Assembly: GCF_021729155.1 (NCBI RefSeq) | Contig: NZ_JAJQYA010000022.1 | Location: forward strand, 1-64,000 | Length of the DNA: 64,000 bases | Reading direction: 5' to 3' | Origin: Membranihabitans marinus | GTDB lineage: Bacteria; Bacteroidota; Bacteroidia; Chitinophagales; Saprospiraceae | Shown: positions 25,538 through 25,785 of the stretch, in pieces | Layout: every line of letters starts with the position of its first letter | Numbering within the stretch: position 1 is the stretch's first letter | The notes under the pieces: generated by a model | What the model was told of the DNA's origin: nothing | Databases searched by the model: none | The model's input: the letters and a program-made list of their open reading frames with translations, nothing else | Position numbers and translations under genes: made by a program

Positions 25538-25574
25538 AAAAAAATGGTCGATATTTTTATTAAATATCGACCAT
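25538..25574 (-). terminator. Strong intrinsic terminator of the tRNA-like RNA gene
   Basis: A perfect 13-bp stem (ATGGTCGATATTT with AAATATCGACCAT, 5-nt loop) is followed on the minus strand by a run of T residues (A-run 25538-25544 on the plus strand). It begins 2 nt after the CCA end of the tRNA-like sequence. This is strong evidence that the minus-strand RNA is a discrete transcript. Confidence 0.85.
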
Positions 25575-25575
25575 A

Positions 25576-25738
25576 TGGCTGTGAGAGCAGGATTCGAACC
25601 TACACAGAGCGGTTAGTGCTATTGAACAGATACTGAAATCCAAAAACAATCGGTAAAGATTATTTATCCTATAACATTTATCCCGTTGACTCCACCCTCG
25701 AGACAAGAGGGCACGGCTGCCTATTTCGTCACCTCACA
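25576..25738 (-). tRNA. tRNA-like RNA, class II-like, with a ~91-nt insertion in the variable region; anticodon loop reads GUC
   Basis: Read on the minus strand from 25738, the sequence has a 7-bp acceptor stem UGUGAGG/UCUCACA (last pair G-U), U8, a 3-bp D stem ACG/CGU with an AAAUAGGCAGC loop containing GG, a perfect 5-bp anticodon stem CCCUC/GAGGG with 7-nt loop UUGUCUC, a 5-bp T stem with loop UUCGAAU, discriminator G and an encoded CCA at 25578-25576. Between the anticodon arm and T arm are about 91 nt instead of the usual 4-23; part of it can fold as CAACGG...CCGATTG. A promoter -7 box and a terminator flank it. It could be a functional odd tRNA, a tRNA with an unknown intron, or a non-translational tRNA-like RNA; the GUC anticodon would mean Asp, but other features resemble Ser/Leu tRNAs. 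Confidence 0.6.
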
Positions 25739-25750
25739 GTATGTTTATGG

Positions 25751-25775
25751 AATGTAATCACTTGTTGATTACATT
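25751..25775. promoter_or_regulatory. Perfect 10-bp palindrome between promoter and tRNA-like gene
   Basis: AATGTAATCA and TGATTACATT are exact inverted repeats around a 5-nt centre. The palindrome starts 2 nt inside the -7 box and ends 12 nt before the 5' end of the tRNA-like RNA. It could be a repressor operator or a 5' leader hairpin. Confidence 0.55.
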
Positions 25776-25777
25776 GG

Positions 25778-25785
25778 CAAATATA
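25778..25785 (-). promoter_or_regulatory. Candidate -7 promoter box of the tRNA-like RNA
   Basis: On the minus strand TATATTTG matches the Bacteroidota -7 consensus TAnnTTTG exactly, about 40 nt before the 5' end of the tRNA-like RNA. No clear -33 TTG is seen. Confidence 0.45.

Follow-up and report, generated by a model that had tools for sequence, protein, structure and literature searches.

What kind of RNA gene lies on the minus strand between positions 25576 and 25738 of the window, i.e. the 64,000-nucleotide stretch of Membranihabitans marinus DNA that was analyzed as a whole? The initial annotation had described a stand-alone, 163-nt tRNA-like gene. All of the parts that it named are present in the sequence, and a covariance model (R1, for which 32 sequences from the window's relatives served as the training set) matches exactly this span, from U1 to A76, with 132.2 bits over the full model (positions 1–152). 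The observation is right but understated. Judged by sequence comparison alone, the gene belongs to a new family of tRNA-like RNAs, which is present in one to several, often tandem copies in its hosts and is carried by phages, too. ARAGORN called no tRNA in the window. The Rfam search that had been proposed as a check (Rfam 15) gave no match above a gathering score; the permissive matches, all below their gathering scores, fell mostly on the terminator and the A/T-rich flanks.

The RNA comprises an acceptor stem with the 5' strand UGUGAGG (residues 25732–25738) and a 3' strand (TCTCACA in DNA letters) that is followed by G73, C74, C75 and A76 (25576–25586). U8 is present. The D arm (25713–25729) is of class II, with a 3-bp stem ACG/CGU and a Leu-like loop containing GG. 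It is followed by an anticodon arm CCCUC-UUGUCUC-GAGGG (25695–25711) with G34, U35, C36, U37 and C38, and the T arm reads GUAGG-UUCGAAU-CCUGC (25587–25603). These elements were assigned from the sequence together with the family alignments. The place of the variable loop is taken up by 91 nt (25694–25604). At the base of this variable arm is a 4-bp stem, V1 (25690–25693 with 25609–25606), which is supported by the alignments and by comparison with the tRNAs of the genome. The second stem, V2 (5' strand CGG, 25683–25685, with 25612–25610), covaries in both alignments described below. An internal loop follows, with GAUAAA (25677–25682) opposite CUAA (25616–25613), the latter invariant in 32 sequences. 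The third stem, V3 (25671–25676), was taken from sequence and alignment, and its partner strand in the window copy (25622–25617) was placed by eye. The apical part of the V domain (25623–25670) does not contain the GGRUNGACCAC hairpin that is present in most copies counted.

Upstream of the gene we found TATATTTG (25778–25785), a Bacteroidota-type −7 box located 40–47 nt before U1, and downstream an intrinsic terminator consisting of a hairpin and a T run (25538–25574). Both assignments rest on the sequence and on enrichment over the host copies. The motif TAnnTTTG, which we take to be the consensus of this type of box, occurs 21–60 nt upstream of 56/142 host copies, compared with 3.2 expected when windows are drawn at random from these loci. 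Terminator-like hairpins follow 84/143 host copies (7.1 expected). Both counts include tandem copies. Many host copies look like transcription units of their own, and the proposal that the gene stands alone, under a promoter and terminator of its own, is supported. For the phage copies the corresponding numbers are 4/41 (0.7 expected) for TAnnTTTG and 0/42 (1.1 expected) for the hairpin, and the surrounding genes mostly run in the same orientation. The phage copies therefore seem to lie inside operons. The leader of the window copy contains a palindrome, AATGTAATCA/TGATTACATT (25751–25775), which had been regarded as operator-like. It is indeed perfect, in this copy alone among those compared, and a shorter version that also pairs was seen by eye upstream of four copies in the genus (L043, L044, L045 and L046). 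The operator reading is weak; the element is more like a leader hairpin.

The structure of the family was read by eye, as 34 base pairs, from a MAFFT alignment of 32 copies. In this alignment 96.3% of the cells are paired, 21/34 pairs show two-sided changes, and the number of two-sided cells is 135 compared with 41.6 in shuffles, none of which (0/500) reached it. Sliding the partners lowers pairing to 46–57%; reading the structure from this first alignment by itself favors it over slid versions. A larger alignment (A5) contains 133 model-aligned rows with 127 distinct sequences from 100 loci, one row being from a phage record. It was aligned to the structure of R1 and is biased to what R1 can find. 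It was not selected by anticodon, and all statements about the anticodon rest on it. Here 96.4% of the cells are paired and 26/34 pairs change on both sides, with 760 two-sided cells compared with 208 in shuffles (0/500 reach it). In slid structures, pairing drops from 96.4% to 48.6–55.0%. The lack of homologues with conserved or covarying stems had been named, together with a lack of RNA-seq coverage, as the finding that would refute the gene; such homologues were found. The signal would not have been visible in one sequence alone, since the fold energies are unexceptional (z = −1.21 for the window copy and −0.88 for another copy) and the anticodon arm is missing from the minimum-energy folds.

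A 7-bp acceptor stem, U8 and G9, a D stem of 3 bp whose loop is Leu-like, an anticodon arm of 5 bp and 7 loop nucleotides, a T arm and the nucleotides G73 and C74 are common to the extracted copies. In the first 32 copies, U8, A14, A15, G18, G19, U48 and UUCGA of the T-loop are invariant. The variable arm is built up in the order V1 (4 bp), V2 (3 bp), GAUAAA/CUAA internal loop and V3, to which many copies add hairpins, and the whole RNA is 111–213 nt long. V3 has up to 7 bp and is the weakest helix (84.7% of its cells paired). V1 and the one-nucleotide spacing to position 48 are, by eye, the same as in the tRNA-Leu(taa) and tRNA-Leu(caa) of the genome, which identifies the extra domain as an expanded loop of a tRNA-Leu-type variable arm. 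As far as alignments can establish it, the family has a class II body resembling tRNA-Leu, in which the variable arm grew into a conserved multi-stem domain. Several sequences (L454–L457, L471 and L472) have a U-U mismatch in the middle of the anticodon stem (CCUCC/GGUGG).

One hairpin of the V domain carries GG(G/A)UNGACCAC. For the hairpin counts, 83/295 rows were filtered out beforehand (short matches, ordinary tRNAs, T-loop variants and others), leaving 189 distinct ones. The closing pair covaries (114/135 paired compared with 65.9 after shuffling, maximum 81); no covariation was found for the outer pairs beyond it. With at most one mismatch the hairpin is present in 42/43 distinct phage copies, the remaining one having two mismatches. 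It is present in 73/115 host copies and absent from 42/115; in the first set it was seen in 20/31 copies. The fixed GAC of its loop is complementary to the GUC anticodon. Because both are fixed, this complementarity is beyond a covariation test and was given no weight. Of two similar copies in the window's genome (L043 and L044, on G000:C66), one has lost the GGGTTGACCAC hairpin, which is the chief difference between them. In tandem host arrays (e.g. L129, L113, L170, L180 and L005) short, hairpin-less copies stand beside long, hairpin-bearing ones, which suggests two coexisting forms.

The genome of the window contains four copies, one on the contig of the window (C14), one on C38 and two on C66. 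Relatives in other genomes were seen by BLAST, and copies there are often in tandem. Some BLAST match at E ≤ 1 was obtained in all 60 related genomes, which does not amount to presence; presence was defined by covariance-model calls. According to R1, and at the score level given below for members, 30/60 relatives carry the family, as do 161/248 genomes of the order with a completeness of at least 95. Two overlapping samples of the phylum yielded 39/395 (E below 1e-20) and 30/295 genomes. Members in the 395-genome sample have at least 88 bits and at least 111 nt; the next match has 67.2 bits and the rest at most about 62. The stricter filters of such large searches lose weak matches. Carriers in this sample belong to the families f1 (5/5), f20 (11/13), f22 (7/10), f27 (8/8), f28 (2/3), f29 (3/3) and f67 (3/3), and the RNA was absent from all other families sampled. 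The value for f1 is flattering, because the order sample and the 60 relatives include many f1 genomes without the RNA. No copy was found in the congener G001; this patchy loss indicates that the RNA is dispensable in some lineages.

A pattern scan of named genomes gave at least 119 stretches. The 80 matches listed are all from Bacteroidota, with many from Chitinophagaceae, Saprospiraceae, relatives of Cyclobacterium and Dyadobacter/Spirosoma among them. Chitinophaga pinensis YS-16 (L097) has a match of 148.9 bits and Dyadobacter fermentans (L116) one of 133.6 bits. This set and the IMG/VR set described below were fetched by exact anticodon-arm patterns, so their fixed anticodon loops are fixed by construction. 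Proteins from 33 host stretches (copy located in 29) were clustered, and no cluster occurred in more than 8. The two largest extend over 8 and 7 stretches, and ribosomal protein genes are shared by 4. By eye, the shared neighbors are housekeeping-like and reflect shared synteny only. A 79-nt relative with 67.2 bits (G129:C23:55335-55413; L465, L501) has almost no variable arm, together with the same acceptor end, G73, C74, A34 and the loop CUAUCUC. It was left out of A5 and is possibly a stripped form or an ancestor.

The scan of IMG/VR with an anticodon-arm pattern yielded 80 stretches, all of which (80/80) contain the RNA with at least 97.9 bits; two of these copies are cut by the end of the stretch. 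ARAGORN found tRNAs in 36/80 stretches, sometimes only a few nucleotides away from the RNA, and none within the examined stretch in the other 44/80. A PHROGs match was obtained for 6/10 neighboring proteins, including a terminase large subunit, PhoH, an exonuclease and a primase/helicase-like protein. The 636-kb record LR756504 of an uncultured phage contains one copy (129.5 bits). A search of annotated phages with a second query, taken from another phage copy, found nothing.

Phage stretches also contain a second family. Its ends are constant and tRNA-like, with an acceptor AGTCAGG, a Leu-like D arm, a T arm, A73 and C74, and its middle is hypervariable. The family was observed in six loci (L232, L233, L237, L273, L285 and L289) and in at least 120 IMG/VR stretches (L334–L453), altogether at least 134 distinct units, none longer than 200 nt, on at least 104 contigs, with up to four units per contig and at least 76 groups of middles. 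An anticodon arm with 5 bp and 7 nt at the normal place occurs in 7/134 units, compared with 6.9 expected with shuffled middles. Some of these stretches also hold many ordinary tRNAs; a few of the units are called by ARAGORN or the Rfam tRNA model. In L232 a single nucleotide separates a unit from the main RNA. No description of this second family was seen among the open-access papers listed in the literature searches, which leave out most subscription papers.

The fixed nucleotides of the main RNA were compared with those of tRNA-Asp. A review (PMC9976931) gives G73, G34, U35, C36 and C38 as the aspartate set; it describes G1:C72 as strictly conserved in bacterial tRNA-Asp and says that it matters. 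For E. coli, PMC6523644 names G2:C71 and G10 as further determinants. In the 127 distinct sequences of A5, G73, C74, U35, C36 and C38 are each present in 127/127 and G34 in 124/127. U1:A72 and G2:C71 are also found in 127/127, and the third pair is U3:A70 in 126/127 and C3:G70 in 1/127. The pair at position 10 is A-U in 97 sequences, G-C in 14, U-A in 13 and another in 3, i.e. G10 is mostly replaced by A10. The five main aspartate determinants are met by the family; with U1:A72 and mostly A10, two features of tRNA-Asp are missing. Three sequences (L463, L464 and L468) have C34 or U34 in loops CUCUCUC and CUUUCUC, which are glutamate-type anticodons.

Position 33 is U in 108/127 sequences and otherwise A (7), C (6) or G (6), with losses of U33 in the families f1, f8, f20, f21 and f67. 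Position 37 is U in 111, C in 11, G in 4 and A in 1, i.e. a purine in 5/127. The control consisted of the ordinary tRNAs that ARAGORN detects in loci from hosts and phages. Of these, 162/165 have U33 and 161/165 a purine at position 37; the scoring of ARAGORN may itself favor such tRNAs. Taken at face value, these counts indicate that an aspartate handle was fixed and part of the decoding machinery was let go.

The RNA does not replace tRNA-Asp, as a normal tRNA-Asp is present in the window's genome and in at least three phage stretches (L252, L257 and L264). The genome also has a normal tmRNA (G000:C76). AspRS was found above cut-off in 39/40 relatives, as a rule as one gene. By eye, all of the 30 distinct tRNA genes listed for the genome encode C74 and 4 encode the full CCA, and the 3' ends of the family with C74 resemble these ordinary genes. 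The encoded CCA that had been noted is not characteristic of the family; only C74 is common to its members.

With tRNA-Leu, a class II tRNA, the RNA shares the D arm, the 4-bp base of the variable arm with its spacing, A15, U48 and the T arm. Among the tRNAs of the genome, tRNA-Leu(tag) has the best identity (0.72, variable region left out), a small lead over tRNA-Tyr and tRNA-Trp (0.71). However, tRNA-Leu has A73, whereas the family has G73, a GUC-type anticodon loop and a domain-sized variable arm with conserved loops. With tRNA-Asp it shares G73, G34, U35, C36, C38 and G2:C71, but it differs by its class II body, U1:A72, the mostly missing G10 and the loss of U33 and purine-37; the short class I variable loop of tRNA-Asp is not compatible with whole RNAs of 111–213 nt. 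The tmRNA, which is carried by cells and some phages, keeps its alanine handle without an anticodon. It is likewise tRNA-like with a charging handle kept while decoding features go. In contrast to it, the family has an anticodon arm, a D stem and U3:A70 (126/127) instead of the alanine pair G3:U70. No match to RF00023 was found in the window, and the genome has its own tmRNA elsewhere. According to PMC7609411, tRNA-Sec is a special tRNA with a long variable arm and G73. The family differs from tRNA-Sec and allo-tRNAs by a 7-bp acceptor stem combined with a 5-bp T stem, and none of the 127 sequences has a UCA anticodon. SelB was above cut-off in 0/40 relatives, all 40 of which have weaker matches. 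As the RNA failed a defining test of each, we did not classify it as tRNA-Asp, tmRNA or tRNA-Sec. To our knowledge, none of the known AspRS substrates combines a class II body with an arm of this kind. The RNA has no Rfam family, and no description of it was seen among the open-access papers listed in the literature searches (without most subscription papers).

Based on these comparisons we tentatively propose an aspartate-charged, non-decoding tRNA-like RNA whose variable-arm domain binds a partner. Charging is an inference; there are no data on charging, expression or processing. The RNA probably has a task outside ordinary protein synthesis. The RNA would be trimmed and provided with CCA like the tRNAs of the cell. 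Subsequently, it would be charged with aspartate by the ordinary AspRS, which we infer because, in the anticodon loop and at the acceptor end, it is the five main determinants that are fixed. Given that U33 and purine-37 have not been retained, a use in reading codons is not expected. The anticodon, which AspRS recognizes, could have stayed as a charging handle, similar to the alanine handle of tmRNA. The V domain, with its GAUAAA/CUAA loop and mostly the GGRUNGACCAC hairpin, would bind the partner, which is the weakest step of the proposal. For the aspartyl-RNA, the partner might open a special route, namely entry into the ribosome without a codon or a non-ribosomal transfer, and phages might exploit this as well. 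U1:A72 in place of G1:C72, the mostly missing G10 and C34 or U34 in three sequences speak against the proposal. As partners we considered SelB as well as PF09924 and FemAB, two families that transfer tRNA-bound amino acids to lipids or the cell wall. PF09924 occurs in 2/60 relatives, both carriers, and is lacking in 28 other carriers; FemAB occurs in 8/60, of which 2 are carriers. None of the three follows the distribution of the RNA, and they were rejected.

Alternatively, the molecule could be a regulatory or scaffold RNA that is matured by tRNA enzymes and never charged, with the UCNC tail of the loop and the D and anticodon arms forming a site to which a protein or a second RNA binds. Such a site would account for U35, C36 and C38 being fixed even where positions 33, 34 and 37 change, and for an anticodon stem that, in the 32-sequence alignment, is less variable than the stems of the acceptor, V1 and V3 (3/5 pairs never vary). 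That no partner enzyme emerged from SelB, PF09924 and FemAB fits as well. In the larger set, however, the anticodon stem does covary (4/5 pairs), C74 is kept, and the fixed positions coincide with the determinants of AspRS, which holds even for G73 at the opposite end of the molecule. We regard an uncharged scaffold as unlikely, without being able to set it aside.

It is still less likely that the RNA serves in host–phage conflicts as a decoy or target, produced by the cell or the phage, that absorbs or detects tRNA-cutting or tRNA-mimicking factors. Its patchy, multi-copy occurrence in hosts and its presence in several phage lineages (with the terminase, PhoH, exonuclease and primase/helicase-like neighbors) would agree with this role, but it is near-constant in family f20 of the order (11/13), and it does not imitate the tRNA-Asp of the genome in the anticodon stem or at position 37. 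Moreover, no protein cluster is common to more than 8/33 host stretches, whose proteins were not scanned with a defense library.

An ordinary additional tRNA-Asp decoding GAC/GAU with a merely decorative variable arm appears improbable. It would explain G34, U35 and C36 in 124/127 sequences and the kept nucleotides of the tRNA core, but not the loss of U33 in 19/127, the lack of purine-37 in 122/127, C34 or U34 in 3, the conserved V domain and the normal tRNA-Asp that is already present. That the variable region holds an intron or a mobile insert which is spliced out is hardly tenable: the extra segment does sit at one fixed place with varying length, but its basal stem V1 covaries, and two tRNA-Leu of the genome have this 4-bp stem, at this one-nucleotide spacing to position 48, as their normal variable arm. 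Neither the group I core nor any other Rfam intron matched in the window. The remark that the segment is too big for a class II arm and too small for a group I intron was correct, and whole RNAs of 111–213 nt are too short for a self-splicing core. A decayed tRNA or chance fold, for which only the unexceptional single-sequence energies speak, is practically out of the question. For the family it is refuted by covariation that 0/500 shuffles reach in either alignment, by the loss of pairing in slid structures and by invariant positions, promoters and terminators; it cannot be ruled out that the window copy by itself has lost its function.

The RNA is skipped by ARAGORN and Rfam, yet it is present in 161/248 near-complete genomes of the order and in many phage stretches. 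For its conserved variable-arm domain we found no described counterpart. With the reservation that charging is inferred, charging seems to be separated from decoding within one natural molecule. Returning to the proposed aspartate-charged RNA, it is possible, albeit doubtful, that it represents a second tRNA-derived translation helper beside tmRNA, which would be steered by a partner to codon-free entry into the ribosome or to a hand-over of aspartate, in large groups of Bacteroidota, and which phages would have adopted. If charging is true, the family points to an unknown use of aspartyl-RNA that is common to phages. Its tRNA core is intact, and a codon-independent use, if proven, would be categorically new.
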